NCBI RefSeq assembly: GCF_024714495.1
Contig: NZ_JAMZMJ010000004.1
Location: 62,001 to 126,000, forward strand
Source: Marinoscillum pacificum
GTDB taxonomy: Bacteria; Bacteroidota; Bacteroidia; Cytophagales; Cyclobacteriaceae
DNA length: 64,000 bases
Direction of reading: 5' to 3'
A program made the translations under genes and the position numbers. The notes beneath the pieces are model-generated. The model was not told the DNA's origin. It saw only the letters and a list, made by a program, of their open reading frames with translations, and searched no databases. The stretch's first letter is position 1. Each line of letters starts with the position of its first letter. This document shows positions 11,077 to 64,000 of the stretch, piece after piece.

Positions 11077-14064
11077 ATGAAAAACAAAGGATTTGTAGTA
11101 CTATTAACCATAGTCATTTCCTTGCTGTGTATTTATTACTTGTCGTTCACATTTGTAGCACAATCTATCCAGAAAGAAGCTACAGCAGCGACAACTTCAA
11201 GTGATGGCAGCATCGATTTCGCTGAAAAGCAACGTTATTTGGACTCTATTTGGAATGAGCCTGTTTACAATCTTCTTGGAATGGAATACACTTTCCAGGA
11301 TATAAAAGAAACAGAACTTAACCTTGGTCTTGACCTTCAAGGCGGTATGCACGTGACCCTCGAAGTATCTCCAATAGATATTTTGAAAGGACTTAGTGGC
11401 AACAATCAGGATCCTGATTTCCAGGCAGCTTTAGTAGAGGCTAAAGAAAACATCAAAGGAACTCAAACTAATTATGTAGATGAGTTCTACAGTGTATTTC
11501 AGGGTAAAGCTCCAGACAAATCTTTAGCATTCATCTTTTCTAATGCTAGCAACAGAGGCAGAATCAGCCTAAACTCATCAGATAGTGAAGTTTTAGACAT
11601 CATCAAAACAGAAGTTGATGGAGCTATTGACAGATCATTCAATATCCTAAGAACACGTATCGATAGGTTCGGTACTTCTCAACCAAACATCCAGAAATTA
11701 GAAGGTACTGGTAGAATCCAAATAGAACTACCAGGTGTGGACAACCCTGAAAGAGTTAGAAAACTTCTTCAAGGTGTTGCAAAACTAGAATTCTGGGAAG
11801 TTTACGACCTGAATGAAATCTCTCCAACACTTCAGGCAATCAATGACTTGTTGGTGAAGGATCAAAAAAATAACCTTGCTGCAGAATCACTAACGGATGA
11901 CTCAGAAACATCTCAATCAAGCGACGATCTATCTGATCTACTAACAGAAGACGATGGTACTGATGCTGCTGACAGCCTAACTGCTGAAGAAGATCTATCT
12001 GAGGAAGATGCTGCTTTGGACTCTGCTCTAAACAGCCAAGTATCTCCATTATTTACACTGATCAAAAGCCAAATGGGATTGATCTATGATGTAAAAGATA
12101 CGGCTAAAATCAACAGAATCTTTGAAAGAGAGGATGTACAAGCACTTATTCCATCTAACATGAAGTTCTTGTGGTCAGTAAAAGCCATCAAGAATGATGC
12201 GGTAAATGCTCCTGAGTTATTACAGCTTCATGCTATAAAAACTACTAGAACAGGAAAAGCACCTCTAACTGGTGAAGTAATCACCGATGCAAGACAAGAC
12301 CTAGATCAAAGATCTCAACCTGCCATCAGCATGCAAATGAACGCTGCAGGTGCTAAAGCATGGAAAAGGCTTACAGGAAACAATATTGGAAGAAGTATTG
12401 CCATAGTACTTGATAACTATGTTTACTCCGCACCAAATGTAGAAGGTGAAATTCCTAACGGAAACTCTTCTATCACTGGTAACTTCACACTTGATGAAGC
12501 TAAAGATTTAGCAAACATTCTTAAAGCTGGTGCTCTGCCTGCTCCTACTACTATTGTAGAAGATGTGGTAATCGGACCAACACTAGGAGAGGTTGCTAGA
12601 AACCAAGGTTTGATATCAATCATCGCTGGTTTAGCTATCGTAATCATCTTCATGGTTATCTACTATGCTAAAGGTGGTTTGATTGCAAACGTTGCATTGT
12701 TCTTCAACATCTTTTTCATCCTTGGTATTCTTGCTCAGCTAAGTGCTGCATTGACTCTTCCAGGTATTGCTGGTATTGTATTAACAATCGGTATGTCGAT
12801 TGATGCGAACGTTCTAATTTTCGAGAGAATTAAAGAAGAACTTAGAAATGGTTCTGGACTTAAAGCTGCAATCAGCAGTGGTTATGACAAAGCATTCAGC
12901 TCTATTATAGATGCTAACGTTACGACATTCATCACAGGGTTCTTCCTATACACATTAGGACAAGGACCAGTAAAAGGTTTTGCGATTACATTGATGATCG
13001 GTATTGCATGTTCATTCTTCAGTGCAGTATTCATCACAAGAGTTATTACGGAAGCATTCTCTAAGAAGGGTGACAAAGCGAAACTTTCTTTCGCAAACGC
13101 ATTCTCAAGAAATGCGCTTACTGGCATGAACTACGACTTCATCAGCAAGAGAAAAATGGCTTACATTTTCAGTGGTTCATTCATCACTGTAGGTCTTATC
13201 GCGATGTTGATCAACGGATTGACATTAGGAGTTGATTTCAAAGGTGGTCGTTCTTATGTTGTTTCATTAAATGAGGCAGTTCCTCCATCAGAGTTGAAAG
13301 CCGCTATTACTCCATTCTTCGAGAACTCAGGAAGTGAAGTAAAAACGTACGGTGCTAACAATGTACTGAAAGTAACCACTCCTTACTTGATTGAAGATGA
13401 AACGGATGTAGCAGATGCTAAAGTGAAAGAGGCTTTGATCAAAGGAGTTTCTTCAATGGGCTTAACATACTCTGATCAAACAACTGCACCAGATGCTGGC
13501 GAGTTTATTATCAGTAGTTCATCGAAAGTAGGTGCAACAATTGCTGACGACATCAAAAACTCATCTTATGAATCAGCGCTATTTGCCTTGATTAGTATAT
13601 TCATCTACATCTTGATTAGATTCCGTAAGTGGCAGTTTGGTCTTGGTGCTATTGTTGCACTATTCCACGATACATTGTTCGTACTATCTGCATTTGCGAT
13701 TGCAGGTCTAGTTGGAGTGTCATTTGAGGTTGATCAGGTATTCGTTGCAGCGATTCTTACAATCATTGGTTACTCAATTAACGATACCGTGGTTGTGTTT
13801 GATAGAATTCGTGAAAACCTTGGAATCAAAACGGGTACTGAGAAGAAAAAAGTATTCAACGAATCACTTAACAGCACTATTAGCCGTACGTTGATCACTT
13901 CAATTACTACTTTGATTGTAGTATTGGTATTGTTCATCTTTGGTGGTGCAGCATTGAAAGGATTCTCGTTTGCTCTTCTTGTAGGTATCTTAATTGGTAC
14001 TTACTCCTCTATCTTCATTGCAACTCCGGTTGTAATTGACCTGGATGGTTCGAAGAAGGATTAA
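11077..14064 (+). CDS. secDF: Fused protein-export translocase SecDF
   Basis: SecDF uses the proton gradient to complete translocation of proteins emerging from SecYEG. Residue order is: N-terminal membrane helix, SecD motif LGLDLQGGMHVTLEV near residue 87, the P1 periplasmic domain with a low-complexity acidic insert (about 275-320), and the SecD membrane domain with GMSIDANVLIFERIKEEL. After a cytoplasmic link comes the SecF half with GVDFKGGRSYVVSL and SINDTVVVFDRIRENLG. About twelve membrane helices are expected. The 995-residue D-F fusion is the normal Bacteroidota form. A strong terminator follows 20 bases after the stop. Confidence 0.97.
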   Translation: MKNKGFVVLLTIVISLLCIYYLSFTFVAQSIQKEATAATTSSDGSIDFAEKQRYLDSIWNEPVYNLLGMEYTFQDIKETELNLGLDLQGGMHVTLEVSPIDILKGLSGNNQDPDFQAALVEAKENIKGTQTNYVDEFYSVFQGKAPDKSLAFIFSNASNRGRISLNSSDSEVLDIIKTEVDGAIDRSFNILRTRIDRFGTSQPNIQKLEGTGRIQIELPGVDNPERVRKLLQGVAKLEFWEVYDLNEISPTLQAINDLLVKDQKNNLAAESLTDDSETSQSSDDLSDLLTEDDGTDAADSLTAEEDLSEEDAALDSALNSQVSPLFTLIKSQMGLIYDVKDTAKINRIFEREDVQALIPSNMKFLWSVKAIKNDAVNAPELLQLHAIKTTRTGKAPLTGEVITDARQDLDQRSQPAISMQMNAAGAKAWKRLTGNNIGRSIAIVLDNYVYSAPNVEGEIPNGNSSITGNFTLDEAKDLANILKAGALPAPTTIVEDVVIGPTLGEVARNQGLISIIAGLAIVIIFMVIYYAKGGLIANVALFFNIFFILGILAQLSAALTLPGIAGIVLTIGMSIDANVLIFERIKEELRNGSGLKAAISSGYDKAFSSIIDANVTTFITGFFLYTLGQGPVKGFAITLMIGIACSFFSAVFITRVITEAFSKKGDKAKLSFANAFSRNALTGMNYDFISKRKMAYIFSGSFITVGLIAMLINGLTLGVDFKGGRSYVVSLNEAVPPSELKAAITPFFENSGSEVKTYGANNVLKVTTPYLIEDETDVADAKVKEALIKGVSSMGLTYSDQTTAPDAGEFIISSSSKVGATIADDIKNSSYESALFALISIFIYILIRFRKWQFGLGAIVALFHDTLFVLSAFAIAGLVGVSFEVDQVFVAAILTIIGYSINDTVVVFDRIRENLGIKTGTEKKKVFNESLNSTISRTLITSITTLIVVLVLFIFGGAALKGFSFALLVGILIGTYSSIFIATPVVIDLDGSKKD

Positions 14065-14084
14065 GAATTTTTAGAAATACTAAG

Positions 14085-14118
14085 AAGCCTAGTTGAAAAT
14101 CAGCTAGGCTTTTTTTTT
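14085..14118 (+). terminator. Rho-independent terminator after secDF
   Basis: AAGCCTAG (14085-14092) pairs with CTAGGCTT (14104-14111) and runs into a stretch of T, giving a classical plus-strand terminator. Confidence 0.85.
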
Positions 14119-14173
14119 GCTTAAAATCCTATATCATCAGATAATTGTTAAATTTATGGAAACTCATTTCTGA

Positions 14174-14899
14174 ATGAAATCAAAGGTGTACAACAAACCT
14201 TTTTTATACCTCTCTATCATAGTTGCAGTATTCATCGTACTGATACTGTTAGATCAAGTTTTCGGCTTCCATTATGAACCTGTAGAATACAAACTTGCCG
14301 AAACTGAAGAGGACCACTCACCAACCATTGAACATGATAAAGACACCACTTCTGAGTTTAGCTCTTTCCAACATGAGGCTGTTGATGATGAAAAAATCGA
14401 ACTAGCAGAAAAAGGTGAACATAGTGACGCAGCAAATGCCCCAGTAGAAAAGGAAACAAAGCCAGACGCTACTTCCAACAATTCCACCCCGAAAGATTAT
14501 TTCGCGTCACTTATCAAATCCTATAAACAAAACACGCTAAGTAAGCTTGAGAAAAATAAAGCCCGTACCGATATTGTTATCCGGTATTATCATCATGAGC
14601 CAGACGGCAACAGCGCCTATGCTTTAGGAAACCTGGGATACTATATTCACGAAAGAGAGGTTTCACCTGAATATTTGAACTACCAGTCAAATGCCATATT
14701 CTATGGTGATAGCGTGTCATTAACGGACTTGCAAATTGTGTCCTACACACTACTAGAAGAAGGCCTACCGATTAAGATTATTAAGCCCTCCAAATTCCAT
14801 GATTCATGGAAGGCCCATTCTATTGAAATCGGTACGGACACCACAGCTTTAAACAAGCCTACCGTTACTTTCTCACAAATTCAGGCATTGACCTTATAA
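14174..14899 (+). CDS. Hypothetical membrane-anchored protein with LytR_C-like tail
   Basis: The 241-residue protein has one hydrophobic segment (residues of about 10-28, FLYLSIIVAVFIVLILLDQV), a long charged low-complexity linker rich in E, D, K and T (35-100), and a folded C-terminal domain. That domain runs from DIVIRYYHHEPDGNSAYALG through LPIKIIKPSKFHDSWKAHSI. Its beta-alpha pattern loosely resembles domains that bind cell-wall or polysaccharide, but I cannot name it with confidence. It follows the secDF terminator and precedes another envelope protein, so it is probably its own transcription unit. Confidence 0.7.
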   Translation: MKSKVYNKPFLYLSIIVAVFIVLILLDQVFGFHYEPVEYKLAETEEDHSPTIEHDKDTTSEFSSFQHEAVDDEKIELAEKGEHSDAANAPVEKETKPDATSNNSTPKDYFASLIKSYKQNTLSKLEKNKARTDIVIRYYHHEPDGNSAYALGNLGYYIHEREVSPEYLNYQSNAIFYGDSVSLTDLQIVSYTLLEEGLPIKIIKPSKFHDSWKAHSIEIGTDTTALNKPTVTFSQIQALTL

Positions 14900-14942
14900 T
14901 GTTAAAAAACATTAATTGAGGTAATAAGAGAAGTTTTCTGCC

Positions 14943-14950
14943 CACCTTTG
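14943..14950 (+). promoter_or_regulatory. -7-like box of the 14955 gene
   Basis: CACCTTTG resembles TAnnTTTG, keeping TTTG, and ends only 4 bases before the GTG start. A leaderless transcript is predicted. Confidence 0.35.
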
Positions 14951-14954
14951 GAAG

Positions 14955-15710
14955 GTGAATAAACTGCTACTATCTCTTTTAATATCTCTGTCTGCATTGG
15001 CCATGGCACAAGGCCAAAATGTGACCGGAGAATTATTGGATTCGATTTCTAATGAACCTGTCCAGTTTGCTCATGTCCAAAACATCACTGCCAAAAAGGG
15101 AACTCTGACCAACCAATTTGGTCAATTCAAAATACCTGCTAGCATTGGTGATACTATAGCCTTTTCCATTGTTGGATACCAACAAATTGGTTGGGAGGTA
15201 AAAGCAACTTGGCTAGAAGAAAAAATAACGCTTAAGCTTCCAAAAGACACGGTGTTGCTCGATGAGGTATTGATTTCAGATATGCCTACAGAAGCCGAGT
15301 TCAAACGACAAATGCTCAATCATCAACCTAAAGACACAGGATTTTGGTACCATGGCATGGCGCCACCGAAACCTCGAGATGACTCTCCTTTATCTGAGTC
15401 ACAAGTCAATAATCCTCTGTTCGCTATCACTCAACCTGCAGATTTTCTTTATGAGAAGTTCAGCAAACAAGCCAAGGAAAAAAGAAAGTATCACCAAATC
15501 ACCCAAAAAGAATCTATTACCTATCGGGTAAATCAGAAGTTCACTCGTGATTTTGTGCAAAATGTCACTGGATTAGAAGGAGATGAATTAACCAGCTTCA
15601 TCTATTTCTGTGATTATTCTCTAGACTACCTCGATCGGACACCATTATATCTCATTCGGGAAGACTTACTAGCTCAACTTGATAAATTCCAAAATCAGCA
15701 CCCAGGATAA
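14955..15710 (+). CDS. CarboxypepD_reg-like domain secreted protein
   Basis: A signal peptide (NKLLLSLLISLSALAMAQ) starts exactly at the GTG codon, which fixes the start. Residues 22-105 form a carboxypeptidase regulatory-like (CNA-B type) beta-sandwich: VTGELLDSISNEPVQFAHVQ, GTLTNQFGQFKIPASIGDT, then the closing strand VLLDEVLISD. The remaining 145 residues have no recognised domain and include PKDTGFWYHGM. In Bacteroidota this domain often heads TonB receptors or acts alone in the outer envelope. The 251-residue length suggests a complete stand-alone protein, not a receptor fragment. Confidence 0.8.
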   Translation: MNKLLLSLLISLSALAMAQGQNVTGELLDSISNEPVQFAHVQNITAKKGTLTNQFGQFKIPASIGDTIAFSIVGYQQIGWEVKATWLEEKITLKLPKDTVLLDEVLISDMPTEAEFKRQMLNHQPKDTGFWYHGMAPPKPRDDSPLSESQVNNPLFAITQPADFLYEKFSKQAKEKRKYHQITQKESITYRVNQKFTRDFVQNVTGLEGDELTSFIYFCDYSLDYLDRTPLYLIREDLLAQLDKFQNQHPG

Positions 15711-15787
15711 GCTCAATTTTTACTATTTCTAAATTTTAACAGCCTCCGATTGTTGATTTTAAAATTAACCACGTATCTTGGTGGTTG

Positions 15788-17694: not shown

Positions 17695-19872
17695 ATGCAA
17701 AAAAATCAAATCATTTTCATGTTCTTACTTTCCATCACATTCTCCGCTTTATCACAAAGCAATGCGCAAGATAGTGTTTGGATGATAGAGCTTGAAGCGA
17801 TTTCAATAGAAAACACCACTTCGAAAGATCAGCTGCCAGAACTTTTAGGAACCAACCTATATGCCGGCAAAAAGACCGATTTACTCACACTGAATGGTAG
17901 TGAAAACTTATCTCAAAATCTGGGAAGAATGATCTTCGCAAAAATCCCAGGGATCAATCTTTGGGACATGGACGGTGCCGGCACTCAACTCAATATCAGC
18001 ACTAGAGGAACCGACGCACATCGAAGCATCGAAATGAACATGCGTCAAAATGGCTACAACACCAATTCAGACATGTTTGGCTATCCTGAAAATCACTATA
18101 CCGTAGCTATGCAGGGTGTTAAACAGATCCAACTCGTTCGAGGATCTGCCGCTCTGCAGTTTGGGAGTCAGTTCGGAGGAATGATGAATTACGTCATGAA
18201 AACCGGCAATCCCAATAAAGTATTTGAGGTAGAAAGCGAACAAACCTATGGCTCCAATAATTTTTTCAACTCTTTTAACTCTATAGGTGGAACAATGGGC
18301 AAGGTCAGTTACTATGCCTTCTATGACGACCGCCAAGGTGATGGCTGGCGACCAAACTCAGCTTTTCATTATAAGTCGTGGTATACCAATTTCAAGTATC
18401 AGTTCAATCCTAAAGCAAGTCTTGCTTTTCAGTTTTCAAGAATGCACTACGAACAACAAATTGGAGGTGGTTTAACTGACAAAATGTTCAAGGAAAACCC
18501 TCTTCTATCCAATAGAACAAGAAACTTCTTTAGCCCAACGATCAACATTCCTGCAGTAATTCTTAACTATCAACTCTCTGCAAATACGAAACTGGAAGTC
18601 ACTACCAATGGAATCTGGGGAGACAGAAGCAGTGTACAATTCATCAACACTCCGAATGTTGAAGACACTTTCAATACTGATATTGGCAGCTACAATGCTA
18701 GACAGGTAGACAGAGATTTCTATGCAGGTTTTACTACTGAGGCAAGAATCCTCCATCACTACTCACTTGGAAAAGTGAATTCAACTTTGGCCGGAGGTAT
18801 TAGATACTTTAATGAAACGACCAAAAGGAGACAGAAAGGAAAAGGCACAACTGGTAGCGACCTTACCTTTGACTTAACTGGGAATTATGGAGTTGATCTA
18901 CGTTTTCACACGATTAACTACGCTGTTTTCGCTGAGAATGTATTCCACCTAAACCAAAAGCTTTCGGTGACACCAGGTTTCAGATATGAGATGATCCAAT
19001 CAGATTTGACAGGAGTCATTGAAAACCGGTCAGTAGATGTGGATTATAGTGGAAATCGCACATTCCCACTTTTCGGAATAGGCATGGAATATAAAATCCA
19101 TAAAAACTCAGAAATCTATGGGAATGCATCGGAAGCCTATCGTCCTTACCTCTACTCTCAAATTACTCCTTCAAATCAAATTGCTAAGATTGATCCTAAC
19201 CTGACCGATAGTAAAGGGTACAACATAGACTTAGGTTATCGTGGCCATTTTGGAAATAAACTGAATTTTGATATCAGTGGTTTCTACCAATACTACGGAG
19301 ATAGAATTGGCAACCTCAATATTGTCAATGAAGATAATTCCAGCTATTTGTTCACAACCAATGTAGGAAACTCTGTCGCTATTGGTTTAGAATCCTATAT
19401 GGAATTGTCTTTGATAGGTTCTGCCAATCAATCCTTTGAACTTTCTCTTTTCAATTCACTGGCTTATACACATGCACGCTACCTAAGTGGTCACCTAAAT
19501 CAAAATGGAGAAAATCAAGATCTAAAAGGCAACCATGTGGAAGGCGTTCCAGATTGGATCAATAGGGCCGGACTTGATATCAGATTTATAACATTTAGCT
19601 CAAGGCTTCAATTCACACACATCAGTGAAAAATACAATGATGCCAACAACACGTTATTTGACCCTGTGGGCACAAGTGGACTCATTCCGTCCTATTCAAT
19701 TACTGATTGGTCATTTAAATGGAAAATATTTGACCATTACCATTTCTCAGGTGGTGTCAACAACCTGATGAACGCAAAATATTTTAGTCGTAGAATACCA
19801 TTCTACCCGGGACCGGGAATCCTCCCAGGAGATGGAAGGACATTCTACCTGACTTTAGGAGTAAAACTTTAA
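17695..19872 (+). CDS. FecA-like TonB-dependent receptor
   Basis: This is an outer-membrane TonB-dependent receptor. After a signal peptide (IIFMFLLSITFSALSQS), the plug domain reads ENLSQNLGRMIFAKIPGINL, NISTRGTDAHRSIEMNMRQN and VKQIQLVRGSAALQFGSQFG. A 22-strand barrel follows, ending in a C-terminal aromatic beta signal (GDGRTFYLTLGVKL). It lacks the CarboxypepD_reg domain common in polysaccharide SusC proteins, and the plug resembles FecA/iron-siderophore receptors; the substrate is inferred only. It is 725 residues long and complete, and is followed by a strong terminator. Confidence 0.88.
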   Translation: MQKNQIIFMFLLSITFSALSQSNAQDSVWMIELEAISIENTTSKDQLPELLGTNLYAGKKTDLLTLNGSENLSQNLGRMIFAKIPGINLWDMDGAGTQLNISTRGTDAHRSIEMNMRQNGYNTNSDMFGYPENHYTVAMQGVKQIQLVRGSAALQFGSQFGGMMNYVMKTGNPNKVFEVESEQTYGSNNFFNSFNSIGGTMGKVSYYAFYDDRQGDGWRPNSAFHYKSWYTNFKYQFNPKASLAFQFSRMHYEQQIGGGLTDKMFKENPLLSNRTRNFFSPTINIPAVILNYQLSANTKLEVTTNGIWGDRSSVQFINTPNVEDTFNTDIGSYNARQVDRDFYAGFTTEARILHHYSLGKVNSTLAGGIRYFNETTKRRQKGKGTTGSDLTFDLTGNYGVDLRFHTINYAVFAENVFHLNQKLSVTPGFRYEMIQSDLTGVIENRSVDVDYSGNRTFPLFGIGMEYKIHKNSEIYGNASEAYRPYLYSQITPSNQIAKIDPNLTDSKGYNIDLGYRGHFGNKLNFDISGFYQYYGDRIGNLNIVNEDNSSYLFTTNVGNSVAIGLESYMELSLIGSANQSFELSLFNSLAYTHARYLSGHLNQNGENQDLKGNHVEGVPDWINRAGLDIRFITFSSRLQFTHISEKYNDANNTLFDPVGTSGLIPSYSITDWSFKWKIFDHYHFSGGVNNLMNAKYFSRRIPFYPGPGILPGDGRTFYLTLGVKL

Positions 19873-19907
19873 CTCCTCAAAACACTATACTATACGTTTC
19901 TAAACTT

Positions 19908-19940
19908 AAACCCTGTTGCTATCGGCAGCAGGGTTTTTCT
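19908..19940 (+). terminator. Terminator of the FecA-like receptor gene
   Basis: AAACCCTGTTGC (19908-19919) pairs with GCAGCAGGGTTT (19925-19936), with one G-T pair, and is followed by a T-rich tract on the plus strand. Confidence 0.85.
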
Positions 19941-19948
19941 TTTGAACA

Positions 19949-19978
19949 ATAAAAAACCCTGACGAATGCTCGCCAGGG
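19949..19978 (-). terminator. Terminator of the 20007-20174 small gene
   Basis: CCCTGACGA (19957-19965) pairs with TCGCCAGGG (19970-19978), with one wobble. Read on the minus strand it is followed by six T. It lies 29 bases past the small gene's stop and supports that gene being transcribed. Confidence 0.8.
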
Positions 19979-20006
19979 CTGGGTTTATATCTTTCAACTA
20001 GATTAC

Positions 20007-20174
20007 TTAGCTACCACAACCAACGCACTCAATTTCCTGGTTCATTGGTTTAGTGCCATTTGCCTGCATTTTCAAATTGTGGATCTTGTCTCTGATATCC
20101 ATATCCTGAAACATGTCACCTGTTAATTGTCCCTCAAGAGTTGCGATCTCTTGTTCTAGTTGTTCTTTTGTCAT
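20007..20174 (-). CDS. Small conserved-looking protein with C-terminal CxxC tail
   Basis: A 55-codon frame runs from ATG at 20174 to TAA at 20007. The product is a helical, charged peptide (MTKEQLEQEIATLEGQLTG, then DMDIRDKIHNLKMQ). It ends in IECVGCGS, so two Cys form a CxxC four residues from the C-terminus. A terminator immediately downstream and natural codon use support it. I have an impression of similar short proteins with the same kind of tail in other Bacteroidota, but I cannot confirm it. The tail could bind a metal or act as a redox or lipidation site. That is inference. Confidence 0.72.
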   Translation of the reverse strand: MTKEQLEQEIATLEGQLTGDMFQDMDIRDKIHNLKMQANGTKPMNQEIECVGCGS

Positions 20175-20338
20175 GTTGAAGAAGGTTTATTTGTAGCTTT
20201 AATTTATTAAATCATTTTCAATATCTCGGGGAGATCAAGGTAAAAAACTCAACATCTCCTTAAATTGTTCATCAAAATCACAATTGATAACGGAAGTGTT
20301 GCGTCATAATGAATGACACACTTCAAGAATAAACACCA

Positions 20339-20857
20339 TTACTTTATCATAATTATGGCCTTTTGTAAAGCCAGGTTATTCGGATAAGTTACCTTTTGTC
20401 CATCGTCATTCTTTATGATGATCGAGAACATATTCAGATCAAAAACAATTCCCTCAATTGAATTATCTCCATCAACAATTCTGATTCGATCACCAATGCG
20501 GTATGGGAAATAAAAGAACAGAAGAATAGCCGAAGTTATATTACTAAGTAAAGACCAGGAAGCAAATAGTGCTACTCCAGCCACTGTAAAGAAGGATAGA
20601 AAATAAACTGACAATCCCTCAAAAGAAATATCCCAGGTCAGCCCTAGAATCATTAATACAAATATTAGGAGTACAAACCGAAAGTATTTGACTGTATAAA
20701 TTACTCTTGGTAGGGCTATCTCCATTTTCTTACCATATCTCTTGATGAACTTCTCAATGATCTTGATGAGTATCAAATAGAACAATACAACCATCCCGGA
20801 AATCAACAATTGCAAGGTTCGGTCGTCTACAGATTTCAAATACTCAATCACATTCAT
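20339..20857 (-). CDS. Short MscS-family mechanosensitive channel protein
   Basis: The product has three predicted membrane helices (LISGMVVLFYLILIKII; RFVLLIFVLMILGLTW; a third pore helix in VALFASWSLLSNITSAILLF). The MscS beta domain follows with the signature FPYRIGDRIRIVDGDNSIEG and IIIKNDDGQKVTYPNN. It stops right after the beta domain, at about 172 residues, so the C-terminal alpha/beta vestibule of classical MscS is missing. Such short forms are common in Bacteroidota and may be regulatory or minimal channels. The ATG at 20857 is used; an in-frame TTG at 20866 lies nearer the -7 box. Confidence 0.85.
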   Translation of the reverse strand: MNVIEYLKSVDDRTLQLLISGMVVLFYLILIKIIEKFIKRYGKKMEIALPRVIYTVKYFRFVLLIFVLMILGLTWDISFEGLSVYFLSFFTVAGVALFASWSLLSNITSAILLFFYFPYRIGDRIRIVDGDNSIEGIVFDLNMFSIIIKNDDGQKVTYPNNLALQKAIIMIK

Positions 20858-20875
20858 AGCTATCAAAAATTTTCA

Positions 20876-20883
20876 CAAAGCTA
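20876..20883 (-). promoter_or_regulatory. Bacteroidota -7 box of the MscS-like gene
   Basis: On the minus strand the sequence is TAGCTTTG, an exact TAnnTTTG match, ending 9 bases before the TTG at 20866 and 18 before the ATG at 20857. Confidence 0.5.
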
Positions 20884-20989
20884 GTTCGAGAAATTTCAGA
20901 TTGGAACTTCAGCATTCATATTTATGCAATAGGCAAGTAAAAGATTCGTTGAATACGAAACAGGTGATTCATGAATGTTTTCTGAATCA

Positions 20990-21020
20990 AAAAATTAAAG
21001 CTCGTTGTTCGACGAGCTTT
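20990..21020 (-). terminator. Terminator of the DinB-family gene
   Basis: AAAGCTCGT (20997-21005) pairs with ACGAGCTTT (21012-21020). On the minus strand the stem is followed by TTTAATTTTTTT-like sequence. It lies 16 bases after the DinB-family stop. Confidence 0.8.
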
Positions 21021-58175: not shown

Positions 58176-58291
58176 CAAAAATCTAGGACTGTATTCATTT
58201 CTTAACGCCTTTTGAGGACTAAAATCAGGAAATAAAAAAACTCGTCCAGTTTATTCATCCTCAAGAAAATAAATCTATCAATGACTCTAAC

Positions 58292-58309
58292 CTGCCTACC
58301 GACAGGCAG
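58292..58309. repeat. REP-like palindrome, CTGCCT/AGGCAG
   Basis: CTGCCTACCGACAGGCAG forms a 6-bp stem with a 6-base loop in the long spacer 58031-58478. It has no T run, so it is probably not a terminator. Its sequence suggests a dispersed extragenic palindrome. Confidence 0.45.
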
Positions 58310-58467
58310 ACAGCTTTTATTTCAATCTGATTTTAACCTCTCAAAAACCTAAAATGAACAATGTCCATCCTTGCATGAAAGCCCATACCATATCAATCCG
58401 AAAAATATTTAAGACTCAATATTGCTCTGTTCACTCTGCGATCTCCGCGGTTAAAAAAGAGTTGATT

Positions 58468-59009: not shown

Positions 59010-61202
59010 ATGAATTTTAAACTGTTCCGCCAGCATGATGTTATGGATTGTGGCCCTACCTGCCTAAGGATGGTGGCATCATTTCATGGCAAAAATTATT
59101 CAATTCAAGAACTACGTGAAAAATCCCATCTTACCAAGGAAGGGGTATCAATGCTGGGCATTAGCACAGCTGCTGAGTCAATCGGACTAAGAACAATCGG
59201 TGTTAAACTTACTTTTGACCAACTTCAAAATGAAGCACCTTTACCTTGTATAATTCATTGGAATCAAAATCATTTTGTAGTTGTCTATAAAGTAAAAAAT
59301 AATAAAGTTTGGATTGCTGACCCAGTTGGACAAAAGATTGTTCTCGGTAAAAGTGAATTTCTTCAATCATGGATCACAAAAAATGATACAGATACCTCCA
59401 AAGGGATAACTCTCTTATTAGAGCCAAAATCAGATTTTTATTCTAAAGAATCTGACCAGGGAATCACACATCAGAAAGGTCTGTATTATTTATTTTCTTA
59501 TTTCAGAGGTTACAAAAAATTTGTAACTCAATTGATATTTGGATTACTTATTGGAAGCCTTCTTCAATTAATTTTCCCTTTTCTAACTCAGGCAATTGTT
59601 GATATTGGAGTAAATACAAGGGATTTAAATTTTATATACCTGATTCTTGGAGGTCAATTAATGCTTTTTTTTAGCAGGACTTCTGTTGACTTTATACGAA
59701 GATGGATATTACTTCATTTAAGCACTCGGATTAATGTCTCAATCATCTCCGATTTCTTAATCAAATTAATGAATCTTCCTCTGGCATATTTCGACACCAA
59801 ATTGATTGGTGATTTATTGGAAAGAGTTGGAGATCATCGCCGAGTTCAGCAATTTCTTAGTTCTTCCTCATTGAACATTCTTTTTTCATTTTTCAATTTG
59901 ATCATATTCGGAATCGTTCTGATAATATACAACCTTCGAATATTTTTAGTTTTTACCTCTGGAAGTGTGCTATACTTCCTTTTTGCAATAATTTTTCTCA
60001 GAAAACGAAAAGAGATTGACTACCGGAGATTTAATCAACAATCTGCCAATCAGACCTCAATGATTCAGTTAATCTCGGGAATGACTGAGATAAAACTAAA
60101 TGGAGCAGAAAAATTAAAAAGATGGGAATGGGAACGCATTCAAGCTAAATTATTCAAAATAGACATGGATAGTGTGAGACTGCAACAGTTTCAAGAATCA
60201 GGAAGCCTATTTATTAACGAACTTAAAAACATTATCATAACCGTTATGGCAGCAACTGCCGTGATCAAGGGTGAAATGACTTTGGGTATGATGTTAGCTG
60301 TTCAGTACATAATTGGACAATTAAATGGGCCTATAAATAGTGTCATAAATTTCATCAGAGAATGGCAAGATGCCAGGATCAGCATGGAAAGAATTGGTGA
60401 AGTTCATAGCATTAAAAATGAGGAAGATGAAGTCGCACAAAGATTAGATTTACCTAATAGATCTGGAGAATTGAGCATTGAAAATCTAACTTTTAGATAC
60501 AACGTGCTAGATCAGCAAAATGCTCTTGATAATATTTCTATGATCATACCAGAAGGTAAAATCACCGCAATAGTTGGCTCAAGTGGAAGTGGTAAAACAA
60601 CTTTAATGAAACTGCTGCTAAAAATTTACTCACCAACAAATGGACGACTGATGATTGAGAATATAAATCTTAATTATGTGAGTAGTGCAAAATGGAGAGA
60701 AAAAGTAGGTGTGGTAATGCAGGATGGATTTATCTTTTCAGATACTATCGCAAAAAACATAGCCATTTCAGATGAATATCCAAACCTCGACAAGGTAATT
60801 GAATCCTGTAAAATTGCCAACATACATACTTACATTGAAAAACTCCCCTTAGGTTACTCTACCAAAATTGGTCAGGATGGAACAGGCTTAAGCCAAGGAC
60901 AAAAGCAAAGACTACTGATTGCGAGAGCCGTATATAAGAATCCTCAATTTTTATTCTTTGATGAAGCAACCTCCGCTTTGGATTCAAATAATGAGAAGAT
61001 TATTATGGGAAATCTTGAAGAATTTTATAAAGGAAAAACGGTTCTTGTGATAGCTCATAGACTAAGCACAGTTAAAAAGGCAGATCAAATAATCGTATTA
61101 GAAAAAGGCAAAATCATAGAAACCGGAACTCATGCAGAACTAGTTTCTAAAAAAGGGAACTACTATCATCTAGTCAAAAATCAATTAGAACTTGGAGAAT
61201 AA
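59010..61202 (+). CDS. Peptidase-containing ABC exporter (C39/PCAT)
   Basis: This bacteriocin-type ABC transporter cleaves the double-glycine leader and exports the core peptide. The C39 peptidase domain (1-130) has Gln8, catalytic Cys14 (VMDCGPTCLRMVASFHG), His88 (HWNQNHFVVVY) and Asp104 (IADPVG). Six transmembrane helices follow (about 165-440). The nucleotide-binding domain has Walker A GSSGSGKTTLMKLLLKIYS near 521, signature LSQGQKQRLLIARAVY near 627 and Walker B FLFFDEATSALDS near 647. The 730 residues are full length. It is the first gene of the RiPP cluster and the natural processor of the peptide encoded 70 bases downstream. Confidence 0.95.
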   Translation: MNFKLFRQHDVMDCGPTCLRMVASFHGKNYSIQELREKSHLTKEGVSMLGISTAAESIGLRTIGVKLTFDQLQNEAPLPCIIHWNQNHFVVVYKVKNNKVWIADPVGQKIVLGKSEFLQSWITKNDTDTSKGITLLLEPKSDFYSKESDQGITHQKGLYYLFSYFRGYKKFVTQLIFGLLIGSLLQLIFPFLTQAIVDIGVNTRDLNFIYLILGGQLMLFFSRTSVDFIRRWILLHLSTRINVSIISDFLIKLMNLPLAYFDTKLIGDLLERVGDHRRVQQFLSSSSLNILFSFFNLIIFGIVLIIYNLRIFLVFTSGSVLYFLFAIIFLRKRKEIDYRRFNQQSANQTSMIQLISGMTEIKLNGAEKLKRWEWERIQAKLFKIDMDSVRLQQFQESGSLFINELKNIIITVMAATAVIKGEMTLGMMLAVQYIIGQLNGPINSVINFIREWQDARISMERIGEVHSIKNEEDEVAQRLDLPNRSGELSIENLTFRYNVLDQQNALDNISMIIPEGKITAIVGSSGSGKTTLMKLLLKIYSPTNGRLMIENINLNYVSSAKWREKVGVVMQDGFIFSDTIAKNIAISDEYPNLDKVIESCKIANIHTYIEKLPLGYSTKIGQDGTGLSQGQKQRLLIARAVYKNPQFLFFDEATSALDSNNEKIIMGNLEEFYKGKTVLVIAHRLSTVKKADQIIVLEKGKIIETGTHAELVSKKGNYYHLVKNQLELGE

Positions 61203-61271
61203 TTTTTTACAAACTAACGGTTGTTTTATTTTTAATGTATATTAGTCCATTGTGTACAAAATAATACGCCA

Positions 61272-61484
61272 ATGAAAAAGAAAAGTCTTTTTGACAATTT
61301 TGAAAAATTCGAATCAATGCAAGAAGAAAAATCTGCTTGGGGAAGAATTTTAGGAGGTAAAATGTTAGCTGGCACAGGTACTACTGGCTGTGCTACAGGA
61401 GACACTAAAAGTGGTAGTCCAGAATCTGATGACGATTGTGATTGTGATGAGGATGATGATGATCCTGTAACCTTTTTGAGTTGA
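61272..61484 (+). CDS. RiPP precursor peptide with double-Gly leader and Cys/Asp-rich core
   Basis: The 70-residue peptide has a charged leader (KKKSLFDNFEKFESMQEEKS) ending in the double-glycine site GRILGG at 24-29. A 41-residue core then carries Gly/Thr/Ser-rich TGTTGCATGDTKSGS (35-49) and an acidic tail SDDDCDCDEDDDDP (52-65). Cys are at 40, 56 and 58. Thr/Ser/Lys donors and Asp/Glu acceptors are the groups that ATP-grasp ligases join as omega-ester or omega-amide rings, so a graspetide-type product is likely. The Cys may give extra rings or disulfides. Its stop overlaps the TTG start of the ATP-grasp gene. Confidence 0.85.
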   Translation: MKKKSLFDNFEKFESMQEEKSAWGRILGGKMLAGTGTTGCATGDTKSGSPESDDDCDCDEDDDDPVTFLS

Positions 61485-62476
61485 TACTGATATTTTCAAA
61501 CTCAGTAGAACCTTCTACCGCACGGGTTATTAATTGGATTAATAATTTAGGTGGTAGATGGTTCAGAATTAATTCTATTGTAAATGATGGCATGCCTGAT
61601 GTAATTACCAACATCATGGCAGAACTGAACGACCAACAATTCTCGATAACTCTAAAGAAGGGGCAGAAATCGTTGGCTGCTCGTGACATAAATGTTATAT
61701 GGTACCGCCGATTTCAGATAAAGGATAATCTAAATCTATCCCTGGAAGAATTCGAAAAAAGCACTGACTCTGAAATACGGAGATTTCGTACCTCAGAGAA
61801 AATTGCGCTATTCAGATCTTTAGTTTATCGCTTGGAGGATAAATTCTGGTTGAGTCACCCAGATACTGCTGCTGTAAATAAAATCATGCAGCTAGATATC
61901 GCGAGAAAATTAGAGATCATCGTACCTAAAACATGGATTATATCCAGTAAAGAACAATTAAAAGAAGTTCTAAAAATATATCCAAAACTGGCTTTGAAAC
62001 CCATTAAGGACATTCGACCAATATCCATGGGGAAAAAATTCTTTAATCAGTATACTACGATTATTGAAATGGATTTTTTGGATCATCTAAATGATGAACC
62101 ATTTCCATTTCTAGTGCAGGAGTATATTTCAAAAGATTATGAGGTAAGAAGTTTTTTTATAGATGATGAATTCTATAGTATGGCCATTTTCTCACAGGAT
62201 AATGACCAAACCACCGTCGATTTCCGACGATATGATTATAAATATCCCAACAGGAATGTTCCATTTAAACTTCCAGTAGATATAGATCAAAAACTAAAAA
62301 AACTACTGAGACGACTAAAACTCAATACGGGATCAATAGACTTATTAGTTAGTGGAGACAAGTACTATTTTCTAGAAGTAAATCCTGTAGGTCAATTCGG
62401 TATGGTCTCCAGTCCGTGCAATTATCATTTACACAAAAAGATTGCCCAATTTCTAATTAAGCAAGACAATGCCTGA
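61481..62476 (+). CDS. Grasp-with-spasm ATP-grasp peptide maturase (GwsG-like)
   Basis: The 331-residue protein is a RimK/MvdD-type ATP-grasp ligase predicted to activate side-chain carboxylates of the precursor and form macrocyclic esters or amides. Signature elements are VIWYRRFQI (residues 73-81), the lysine-bearing ALKPIKDIRP (171-180), FLVQEYISKDYEVRSFFIDD (210-229), DLLVSGDKYYFLEV and the Mg-binding EVNPVGQFG (299-307). The TTG start lies across the precursor stop (TTGA), which couples the two. The grouping as grasp-with-spasm rests on gene order with the SPASM partner and on ATP-grasp motifs. Confidence 0.88.
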   Translation: MILIFSNSVEPSTARVINWINNLGGRWFRINSIVNDGMPDVITNIMAELNDQQFSITLKKGQKSLAARDINVIWYRRFQIKDNLNLSLEEFEKSTDSEIRRFRTSEKIALFRSLVYRLEDKFWLSHPDTAAVNKIMQLDIARKLEIIVPKTWIISSKEQLKEVLKIYPKLALKPIKDIRPISMGKKFFNQYTTIIEMDFLDHLNDEPFPFLVQEYISKDYEVRSFFIDDEFYSMAIFSQDNDQTTVDFRRYDYKYPNRNVPFKLPVDIDQKLKKLLRRLKLNTGSIDLLVSGDKYYFLEVNPVGQFGMVSSPCNYHLHKKIAQFLIKQDNA

Positions 62477-62672
62477 AAAATGTAATTCTCTAGTCAAATT
62501 CATACCAAAGGAGGATTTAAAACTATTTCCTGTACATCTGGAAACCATGGATGAAACCGAACAAGTTCTACGATTTATAGAGACCTATACAAATTCTGCA
62601 GTGGAAGGCATGGATTTCCTCCCACAGCATTATTACAAACCTGTAAGTAAAATAATCATTCTTAATGACTAA
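62469..62672 (+). CDS. Uncharacterised 67-residue protein between the two maturases
   Basis: The protein begins MPEKCNSLVKFIPKEDLKLF, with ETMDETEQVLRFIETYTNSA in the middle and PQHYYKPVSKIIILND at the end. It has a helix-strand mix and no signal peptide. It overlaps the ATP-grasp gene by 8 bases and the SPASM gene by 8 bases, so it is co-translated. I recognise no family; a peptide-binding or assembly role in maturation is possible but not shown. Confidence 0.8.
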   Translation: MPEKCNSLVKFIPKEDLKLFPVHLETMDETEQVLRFIETYTNSAVEGMDFLPQHYYKPVSKIIILND

Positions 62673-63666
62673 GGATTACTTTATTCTCCACGGTAACTGC
62701 ATACCTGTAAAAGGGGCTACAAGAAGTATAATTTGTGACCTTCAACTAGGTAAGTACAAATATATACCTAATGAGCTATATGATATATTGAATCTATCTC
62801 GTGAGCATTCAATAACTGACTTAGAGGAAAAATTTGATCTTTCAGAAGATGGGAGTCTTTTCCATTACTTTGAGGCTTTAGTTAAGTCAGGCTATGGAAT
62901 ATTCACAAATACCCCTGAATTATTTCCAGTGCTAGATCTTGAGTTCGCGACCTATTCAGAAGTAACCAATGCGATCATTGACTATAACTCTACAAGCACA
63001 TATAACCTAATTAGCGTAATAAAGCAACTTGAAGGACTTGTTTGCGAAGCTGTACAAATCAGGAATTTTGATGGGTTGAATATTGATATTTTAGAAAAAA
63101 TATCCACCACGTTTAGTGAATCAAGTATTCCTATTTTTGAAATAATCTTGAAACATGATATAATAGTAGAAGGTAGGTTAGAATCTATCCTAGAAAATAA
63201 TTCAAGGTTTAGATATGTTATCGTCCATTCTTCTCCTGTTGATAAAAGCATAGAAATAAAGAATTCAAAGGTTCATTTCACCAAAAAATCAATTGACTCT
63301 AGCAGTCATTGTGGGCAAATATCTTCATTCTTTTTTACTGTGAATATTGAGTCATTTACAGAAGCATTAGCTTATAACAGTTGTCTTAATAAAAAAATTT
63401 CTATAGATACCAATGGTGAAATCAAAAATTGTCCATCATTCGAAAAATCATTCGGCATAATAAACAACACTAAACTTGTAGATGTACTTAGAAATCTGGA
63501 ATTCAAAAAAGTTTGGAAAATCAATAAGGACCAAATTAGCACCTGTAAAGATTGTGAATTCAGATACATCTGTACAGACTGTAGAGCATACACCAAAAAT
63601 GGAGGCCTTTTCGATAAGCCACAAAAATGTTCATATAACCCCTACATTGGAGAATGGGAAAATTAA
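62665..63666 (+). CDS. Grasp-with-spasm SPASM-domain protein (GwsS-like)
   Basis: The 333-residue protein has a C-terminal SPASM-type Cys array: HCGQIS (Cys216), NSCLNKKISIDTNGEIKNCP (Cys240, 256), ISTCKDCEFRYICTDCRAY (Cys294, 297, 303, 306), KCSY (322). This would hold auxiliary 4Fe-4S clusters. The N-terminal 210 residues contain only isolated Cys at 12, 24 and 127, and no CX3CX2C, so the radical-SAM core cluster is not present. The N-terminus (IPVKGATRSIICDLQLGKYK) is typical of peptide-binding RiPP maturases. It probably acts after or with the ATP-grasp enzyme. Confidence 0.85.
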   Translation: MTKDYFILHGNCIPVKGATRSIICDLQLGKYKYIPNELYDILNLSREHSITDLEEKFDLSEDGSLFHYFEALVKSGYGIFTNTPELFPVLDLEFATYSEVTNAIIDYNSTSTYNLISVIKQLEGLVCEAVQIRNFDGLNIDILEKISTTFSESSIPIFEIILKHDIIVEGRLESILENNSRFRYVIVHSSPVDKSIEIKNSKVHFTKKSIDSSSHCGQISSFFFTVNIESFTEALAYNSCLNKKISIDTNGEIKNCPSFEKSFGIINNTKLVDVLRNLEFKKVWKINKDQISTCKDCEFRYICTDCRAYTKNGGLFDKPQKCSYNPYIGEWEN

Positions 63667-64000
63667 TAGTTATTTATTCCACTTTTTGTCTTTCAACTTT
63701 CTTCCTAAATGGTCAAATACCGGATTATGTACAGTCTCTAAAACAAGCCAAGATTTTGTATTCTAGTCAAGAGTATAGGCTAGCAAAAGAAAAATATTTG
63801 AAACTGGTAAAATATGAAGAATCATGGAGAACAGATATTTATTATCTTGCGAAGTGCTATGCTCAAATCAAGCAAGAAGATTCTTGTAAATATTACTTAA
63901 CCAAAGCAGCCAGATTAGGACTGAGATACAGCTCTATTAAAAGCTTGAATAATGACTCGGTTTTCTCTCAATATTTTGATAATCCTGATTGGAGTGAGGT
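63654..64000 (+). CDS. Secreted repeat (TPR-like) protein, 5' part at window edge
   Basis: A frame opens at ATG 63654, inside the last codons of the SPASM gene (13-base overlap), and is unbroken to the window end, giving at least 115 residues. It starts with a signal peptide (GKLIVIYSTFCLSTFFLNGQ), then helical repeats with TPR spacing (QSLKQAKILYSSQEYRLAKE, WRTDIYYLAKCYAQIKQED, YYLTKAARLGLRYSSIKSL). The coupling to the SPASM gene suggests it belongs to the RiPP cluster, possibly for export, sensing or immunity. It was found by reading the frame directly. Confidence 0.75.
   Translation, partial: MGKLIVIYSTFCLSTFFLNGQIPDYVQSLKQAKILYSSQEYRLAKEKYLKLVKYEESWRTDIYYLAKCYAQIKQEDSCKYYLTKAARLGLRYSSIKSLNNDSVFSQYFDNPDWSE

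Follow-up and report, generated by a model that had tools for sequence, protein, structure and literature searches.

A predicted grasp-with-spasm graspetide cluster of Marinoscillum pacificum and its putatively coupled TIGR03975 radical SAM gene

Introduction

The gene clusters closest to the one described here are the grasp-with-spasm systems (TIGR04192/TIGR04193; branch 5 in PMC8939145), which share with it an ATP-grasp/SPASM pair, a double-Gly precursor encoded upstream of the ligase, an LPL-type protein directly upstream of SPASM, a C39 exporter and, presumably, a secreted cluster-23-like protein. Group 14 graspetides are all said to have a SPASM protein (PMC13097080). In the literature searched, where subscription journals were mostly outside, we found neither a characterised product or role of the grasp-with-spasm SPASM and LPL proteins nor the term "grasp-with-spasm" itself. 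We analyzed a stretch of 64,000 nucleotides of Marinoscillum pacificum (assembly GCF_024714495.1, contig NZ_JAMZMJ010000004.1, contig positions 62,001-126,000), called the window hereafter, together with a stretch, L002, that continues it on the contig and overlaps it by 6 kb, confirmed identical; adding 58000 to an L002 coordinate gives the window coordinate. Judged by its sequence, the unit found at 59010-67709 is a real and intact-looking grasp-with-spasm graspetide cluster, of a kind already known from gene surveys, its most likely function being the production and export of a small ring-closed peptide. What appears to be new is a TIGR03975 radical SAM (S-adenosylmethionine) gene coupled to the grasp-with-spasm operon; this extra enzyme is expected to add methyl groups, so that the product may be new. 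The likeness to branch 5 and group 14 is drawn from gene content, not from tree placement.

The Cluster and Its Relatives

The ligase was named GwsG after gwsG in plasmid annotation, and the SPASM protein GwsS by analogy. The unit consists of the following genes (window coordinates, strand, product and basis of assignment):

59010..61202, plus: PCAT (C39 peptidase-ABC exporter), 730 aa; Pfam Peptidase_C39, ABC_membrane, ABC_tran
61272..61484, plus: precursor peptide, 70 aa; sequence, with GG at residues 28-29
61481..62476, plus: ATP-grasp ligase (gwsG type), TTG start; TIGR04192
62469..62672, plus: small LPL-type partner protein, 67 aa; position and terminal patterns
62665..63666, plus: SPASM protein (GwsS), 333 aa; TIGR04193
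63654..64565 (window edge at 64000), plus: DUF6624 protein, 303 aa; PF20329
64562-66400, outside the window, plus: B12-type radical SAM enzyme, 612 aa, motif CX7CX2C; TIGR03975
66429-67709, outside the window, minus: HlyD-family adaptor, 426 aa; HlyD_3

The six open reading frames (ORFs) that the original prediction had placed in the window are all present at their coordinates, in the same order and on the plus strand, and the overlap of each gene with the next from the precursor on was likewise seen (4, 8, 8 and 13 bases). A fifth overlap of 4 bases extends this series to the radical SAM gene. The stop of the precursor gene is overlapped by the TTG start of the ligase gene, 69 bases separate exporter and precursor without overlap, and 28 bp lie between the end of the radical SAM gene and the convergent HlyD gene. 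The cluster end formerly set at 64000 proved to be the window edge only, as the last ORF ends at 64565 and is followed by the radical SAM and HlyD genes. The class assignment held when the ATP-grasp and SPASM maturase models (hidden Markov models) were run, since both exceeded their curated cut-offs: the ligase reached 293.8 bits with TIGR04192 (cut-off 230) and GwsS 311.6 bits with TIGR04193 (cut-off 175). The idea of one coupled unit is also supported, by the gene overlaps, by the related loci and by the island-wide insertion/deletion described below. As for the "two maturases" of the original prediction, the ATP-grasp enzyme stands, the SPASM protein lacks the radical SAM motif and is better read as a pseudo-enzyme or scaffold, and a true radical SAM enzyme is encoded just outside the window. 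Among the parts it had left unmatched, the small protein (LPL) and the "TPR" protein (DUF6624) fit described families, and the precursor is without a phmmer relative at E 1e-3 in the 101 loci described below.

Grasp-with-spasm loci are numerous. Scanning genomes with an alignment of 20 SPASM rows gave 278 confirmed relatives, so that loci number at least 278 by this one scan, and 80 of the 278 were taken. A sample of 390 genomes of the order gave 27 SPASM matches in 25 genomes, 16 of the 390 genomes being over the TIGR04193 cut-off; 20 of these 27 matches were taken with their flanks, the one of M. pacificum itself is represented by L002, and six weak or partial ones were left out. This makes 101 loci in total, 96 of them distinct by SPASM sequence, the window's own included. 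The genome-neighbourhood comparison suggested alongside the original prediction was run on this set and agrees with the pairing: an ATP-grasp relative starts 0.5-1.6 kb upstream of SPASM on the same strand in 92/96 loci, the others being L035, L046, L085 (contig edge) and L104. A PCAT relative is present in the stretch of 60/96 loci and HlyD in 43/96; such presence counts are lower bounds because the contigs are short, with at least 4 kb downstream of SPASM in 77/96 loci and at least 4 kb on both sides in 67/96.

A few side observations were made on these loci. In L035, an ATP-grasp relative lies downstream of the SPASM gene on the opposite strand, against the usual order. SPASM genes also occur in records titled outside Bacteroidota, namely Gemmatimonadetes (L051), Thermoanaerobaculum (L053 and L054), Acidobacteria (L076), Acidobacteriota (L085), Beijerinckiaceae (L111) and Phycisphaerales (L120), which may reflect either transfer or mis-binning. 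The best matches to the window ligase among the loci are those of L053 and L054 (39% identity), and the small protein of L120 is the same, in the aligned columns shown, as that of L106, titled Chitinophagaceae. No relatives of GwsS or of the TIGR03975 enzyme were confirmed in viral contigs.

The TIGR03975 Radical SAM Gene

The enzyme encoded at 64562-66400 matches TIGR03975 with 574 bits (cut-off 281.85), a family named "RiPP maturation radical SAM C-methyltransferase" (RiPP: ribosomally synthesized and post-translationally modified peptide), and Pfam Radical_SAM with 41.7 bits, over the cut-off. Its CX7CX2C cysteine triad is common to three aligned relatives, and a sequence search of solved structures gave none at E<=0.001. 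A B12-radical SAM enzyme of another RiPP forms beta-methyltyrosine (PMC11117315).

The other 95 of the 96 loci gave no TIGR03975-type gene, either by phmmer (E 1e-3) or by the signature motif. A different radical-SAM-like ORF with CX3CX2C is present in five of the 101 stretches, in no case adjoining the SPASM gene. In L053 it encodes a B12-type radical SAM protein that scores under every cut-off (13949-15724, 2.9 kb downstream on the opposite strand), in L054 a SPASM maturase resembling TIGR04463 and under cut-off (5.2 kb upstream on the opposite strand), in L055 HemN, in L069 a maturase resembling YhhB, again under cut-off (about 9 kb upstream on the opposite strand), and in L099 the His-Xaa-Ser system maturase HxsB (571.4 bits, 19563-21005, 8.5 kb downstream).

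The family itself is sparse in the genomes sampled: TIGR03975 was over cut-off in 3/390 genomes of the order and 4/395 of the phylum, the own genome being in both, in samples (order, phylum, class) that overlap and with at most three candidates scored per genome. With the TIGR03975 protein as query, the class sample of 395 genomes gave a match at E<=1e-40 in the own genome only. At five other TIGR03975 loci no ligase, SPASM or LPL relative was found in the 17-19 kb taken, and two of these five genomes (G052, G107) carry TIGR04193 on another contig. Also, 62 plasmid records contain relatives of the enzyme, all below 60% identity. Three of these plasmid contexts are, respectively, pheganomycin-type with a PGM1-related ligase, with a TIGR04463 SPASM maturase, and with no recognisable partners; thus, TIGR03975 beside another ATP-grasp-related ligase and beside a SPASM maturase is in each case precedented. 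Among the loci examined, a TIGR03975 gene in a grasp-with-spasm operon appears at this locus only.

The Island and Its Surroundings

The GC content of all eight unit genes is 0.32-0.37, that of the flanking DUF4268 gene is 0.413 and that of the other flanking gene, read as a glycogen-branching enzyme without a family search, is 0.427. TIGR04193 is matched in one of 6 genomes of the genus, the own genome, and only once there. When the two flanking proteins were searched in the 6 genomes, three others had both, and the remaining two, without a DUF4268 match, were uninformative. The flank-gene matches of those three genomes are 13, 565 and 521 bp apart, which leaves no space for the cluster. In the nucleotide alignment, about 9.0 kb (L002 941-9909) stand against 561 bp in G003, and the radical SAM and HlyD genes are within these island limits. 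The stretch 59010-67709 is one insertion or deletion relative to the three same-genus genomes, and gain is likelier than loss because the base composition of the island differs (AT-rich).

No RNA families were found over L002 1-12000, and the promoter and terminator scan gave no clear excess over shuffles. Upstream of PCAT and of the precursor, a Bacteroidota-type promoter pattern matched only loosely. L192, an 8-kb stretch that precedes L002 on the contig, holds no relative of the cluster proteins. A palindrome, CTGCCTACCGACAGGCAG, at window 58291-58313 in the gap before the DUF4268 gene was considered as a repeat element and rejected, its 22-mer being single-copy in the genome.

Precursor, Ligase and Exporter

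The precursor has a 29-residue leader, MKKKSLFDNFEKFESMQEEKSAWGRILGG, ending in ILGG, followed by a 41-residue core in which a Thr/Ser part precedes an Asp/Glu-rich part and which contains three Cys (C40, C56, C58). No second copy was found in the genome at E<=1, the only match being its own, and phmmer at E 1e-3 found only the precursor itself in the 101 loci. Candidate precursors were defined by a rule applied upstream of ligase genes (M[KE] start, hydrophobic residue at -4, GG), which gave 89 candidates, 85 distinct, from 63 loci, the window's included; some may be false. In the 84 cores with both kinds of residue, Asp/Glu lie C-terminal of Ser/Thr with a mean offset of 0.197 of core length, as against 0.000 +- 0.021 (largest 0.067) in 1000 shuffles of these cores. 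The window core has the second-highest Asp/Glu share among the 85 candidate cores. At least one Cys is present in 45/85 of these and at least three in 15/85, C-x-C also being found in the cores of L062, L081, L090 and L091; in the core of L090, a metagenome-assembled genome of Mucilaginibacter, Thr, Cys-x-Cys and Asp parts are arranged in a similar way. In its leader and its Ser/Thr-then-Asp/Glu core plan, the window precursor is like the other candidates. It combines the double-Gly leader, Ser/Thr donors and Asp/Glu acceptors of a graspetide precursor (order test for the window core alone, p = 0.046).

The ligase aligns to the microviridin-type ligases 7m4s, 5ig9 and 5ig8 and to CdnC 7mgv, with the stretch FLEVNPVGQ kept. 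Its plasmid relatives were found in 22 records, the best being 32-37% identical and annotated gwsG. The PCAT matches Peptidase_C39 with 127.7 bits in addition to its ABC_membrane and ABC_tran domains (Pfam), and is 63% identical to the PCAT of the Agaribacillus locus L058. The HlyD adaptor matches HlyD_3 with 40.6 bits (cut-off 22.2) and TIGR01843 with 82.7 bits, under the cut-off of 208.65.

The SPASM Protein GwsS

The gene of GwsS adjoins the ligase-LPL pair. The radical SAM motif CX3CX2C was found in none of 93 distinct GwsS relatives (phmmer >110 bits and >280 aa), nor in the window GwsS, and a looser CX4-9CX2C was seen in one relative (L030) of the 93. The two halves of the SPASM cysteine pattern are each retained in 88/93, and the window GwsS has both. 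Similarly, Pfam Radical_SAM at E<=0.01 matched none of 94 GwsS-type proteins, of which 62 matched Pfam SPASM and all 94 matched TIGR04193; as a positive control, the TIGR03975 enzyme matched Radical_SAM at 1.7e-10. Ten cysteines are at least 90% conserved (C12, C127, C216, C240, C256, C294, C297, C303, C306, C322).

The AlphaFold2 model of GwsS (mean pLDDT 93.6, pTM 0.88) shows strands within residues 5-34, helices at 36-44, 50-56 and 64-74, and a strand at 78-81. On our own reading, the model suggests a winged three-helix N-terminal part (residues 5-81), a shortened barrel and a SPASM part. All nine Foldseek matches at E<=0.001 are SuiB, TigE or 5wgg/5why, a sactipeptide-type maturase which we take to be CteB, and PqqE is the tenth, at E 0.008; the nine matched chains exceed GwsS in length by 85-115 residues. 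SuiB, TigE and CteB presumably carry a RiPP recognition element (RRE) at the N-terminal position, and the N-terminus of GwsS may be RRE-like. A sequence search of solved structures with the SPASM profile gave one weak match (chain OT3, E 0.00088). There is also weak similarity to the TIGR04150 pseudo-rSAM (pseudo-radical SAM) family in 16/94 GwsS-type proteins. The pseudo-rSAM proteins of Bacteroidales have no function assigned and are thought to partner a radical SAM enzyme (PMC10352776).

Because the radical SAM motif is absent while the model resembles SuiB, TigE and CteB, GwsS is better read as a putative leader-binding pseudo-enzyme or scaffold, derived from a radical-SAM/SPASM protein. 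That no member examined has the motif contradicts the term "radical SAM enzyme" used in PMC8939145, and a pseudo-enzyme acting as partner protein agrees with the partner-dependent graspetide ligases reported in PMC13097080. That the SPASM "maturase" is a pseudo-enzyme serving as partner protein is a general point that can be tested.

The Small Protein and the DUF6624 Protein

Directly next to the SPASM gene, 82/96 loci, the window's included, have an ORF of 40-130 codons. Common to the 82 aligned small proteins are LP-type residues close to the N-terminus and a C-terminus resembling K-P-[IV]-S-[KR]. The C-terminal pattern is present in 71/82, where 200 residue shuffles gave 1.8 on average (at most 6), and a looser N-terminal pattern in 55/82, where the shuffles gave 26.3 on average (at most 41); these contrasts are only descriptive, because the patterns were picked after viewing the alignment. 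The window protein has LFPVHL near its N-terminus and YKPVSKI at its C-terminus. By phmmer it matched only itself in the 101 loci, the family being visible via position and alignment. PMC8939145 describes an "LPL" family that in branch 5 loci invariably sits just upstream of SPASM, and suggests a PqqD-like role for it; compared by description, the window 67-aa protein appears to fit this family.

The DUF6624 protein matches PF20329 with 55.5 bits (cut-off 27) and has a signal peptide-like N-terminus and a weak TPR part; as the PF20329 match is over cut-off, its description as a plain TPR protein was rejected. DUF6624-type ORFs are present in 45/96 loci, and H202, D236, R237 and R280 are invariant in an 18-row alignment. 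The gene order PCAT, ligase, SPASM, DUF6624, with an oppositely oriented HlyD gene, is seen again in L039 and L065, and by eye in L095. A secreted cluster 23 in which His and Arg are conserved is described in PMC8939145, and DUF6624 is noted for graspetide groups 18, 20, 23 and 42 in PMC13097080; we infer that cluster 23 of the former is the DUF6624 of the latter. The AlphaFold2 model has a mean pLDDT of 88.0. The genome holds six DUF6624 matches, at L002 5654-6565 and on contigs C26, C28, C11 (two) and C29, and one of the five other matches holds internal stop codons.

Proposed Mechanism and Alternatives

The gene content, overlaps, island, motif absence and predicted fold can be read from the nucleotide sequence, and the following scheme is a prediction built on them. 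GwsS and the LPL protein would bind the leader and present the core to GwsG, which would phosphorylate Asp/Glu carboxylates of the C-terminal core part and link these to Thr/Ser (or Cys) in the N-terminal part, so that several macrolactone rings form. Next to this ring closure, the B12-type radical SAM enzyme would add one or more C-methyl groups at unactivated core carbons, the PCAT would cleave after Gly29 and export the core together with HlyD, and the secreted DUF6624 protein would have an extracytoplasmic role, either on the exported peptide or in self-protection. That the unit 59010-67709 makes and secretes one graspetide by this mechanism has, in our view, slightly better than an even chance.

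Several points weigh against this scheme. Both product and activity are predicted. The offset of the window core taken alone (0.213) is marginal at the p value given above. The query-normalised TM-scores (template modelling scores) of GwsS are low, at 0.28-0.51, which weakens the detailed similarity, such values being expected because the GwsS barrel is shortened; also, its RRE-like N-terminus is proposed from fold order and from the RREs of the matched enzymes. The B12-binding match of the radical SAM enzyme (Pfam, E 3.2e-5, 24.2 bits) is under the cut-off of 32.1, C-methylation is the curated family name and is assigned to this protein by analogy, and the substrate could be something other than this peptide. 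Finally, no solved structure matches the DUF6624 fold at E<=0.001, with TPR proteins frequent among the weak matches, and DUF6624 is not specific to such clusters, because of its five further copies in the genome.

Three other explanations bear on the roles of GwsS and of the radical SAM gene. GwsS could be a working radical SAM enzyme that forms thioether bonds from core Cys, as suggested for branch 5 in PMC8939145, where the protein is named as a radical SAM enzyme and the presence of Cys in precursors is pointed out. The three Cys of the window core, the 45/85 candidate cores with at least one Cys and the resemblance of the fold to SuiB and 5wgg/5why fit this suggestion; yet CX3CX2C was seen in 0/93 relatives and not in the window GwsS, Radical_SAM in 0/94, and the chain is shorter than the nine matched chains by 85-115 residues. 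Because the radical SAM motif is absent, we put the thioether reading low and regard it as improbable. It is also quite unlikely, in our judgment, that GwsS uses its SPASM clusters to supply electrons to, or otherwise to partner, the B12-type radical SAM enzyme, in the manner of the pseudo-rSAM/rSAM pairs of Bacteroidales, and not in the ATP-grasp step. Pseudo-rSAM proteins co-occur with rSAM enzymes (PMC10352776), and 16/94 GwsS-type proteins have the weak TIGR04150 similarity, but a TIGR03975-type gene is present in only 1/96 loci against an upstream ATP-grasp gene in 92/96, which makes it unlikely that GwsS needs the TIGR03975 enzyme for its general role.

The B12-type radical SAM gene might instead be a passenger that came with the island and leaves the peptide unmodified, for which its want of a relative in the other 95 loci at phmmer E 1e-3 and the other contexts in which relatives of the TIGR03975 enzyme sit would speak. 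However, it overlaps the upstream gene by 4 bases, its GC and GC3 (third codon position) are the same as those of the cluster, its 612-aa frame is intact with a full-length match to a RiPP maturase family, and by eye no other double-Gly ORF of at least 50 aa lies beside it, though shorter ones could escape; we consider a passenger rather unlikely. Returning to GwsS as pseudo-enzyme, we tentatively propose, as a possibility, that GwsS and LPL together form a catalytically dead leader-binding hub, descended from a radical SAM enzyme, that would bring the precursor first to the ATP-grasp ligase and, at this locus, also to the radical SAM enzyme, giving a C-methylated, ring-closed graspetide.

Comparison with Known Systems

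GwsS shares with SuiB, TigE and CteB the overall fold match, the RRE-like N-terminus and the SPASM end; unlike them, it is without the cysteine motif of radical SAM enzymes, and its chain falls 85-115 residues short of theirs. The ATP-grasp ligase aligns over most of its length with the microviridin/chryseoviridin ligases, presumably MdnB, MdnC and CdnC, and the predicted ester/amide ring logic is alike. In contrast to those systems, there is one ligase here, accompanied by SPASM, LPL and radical SAM proteins, and the leader has no PFFARFL motif (motif as given in PMC8939145). The pheganomycin-type cluster of a Streptomyces globosus plasmid (L213) also has a TIGR03975-annotated enzyme beside a RiPP precursor and a PGM1-related peptide ligase, but differs in ligase family, precursor and partners, with no SPASM_w_grasp annotated. 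Unlike other grasp-with-spasm systems, the present one has a precursor without phmmer relative in the loci examined and a TIGR03975 gene in its operon, and would be a natural case where graspetide ring closure may meet radical C-methylation.

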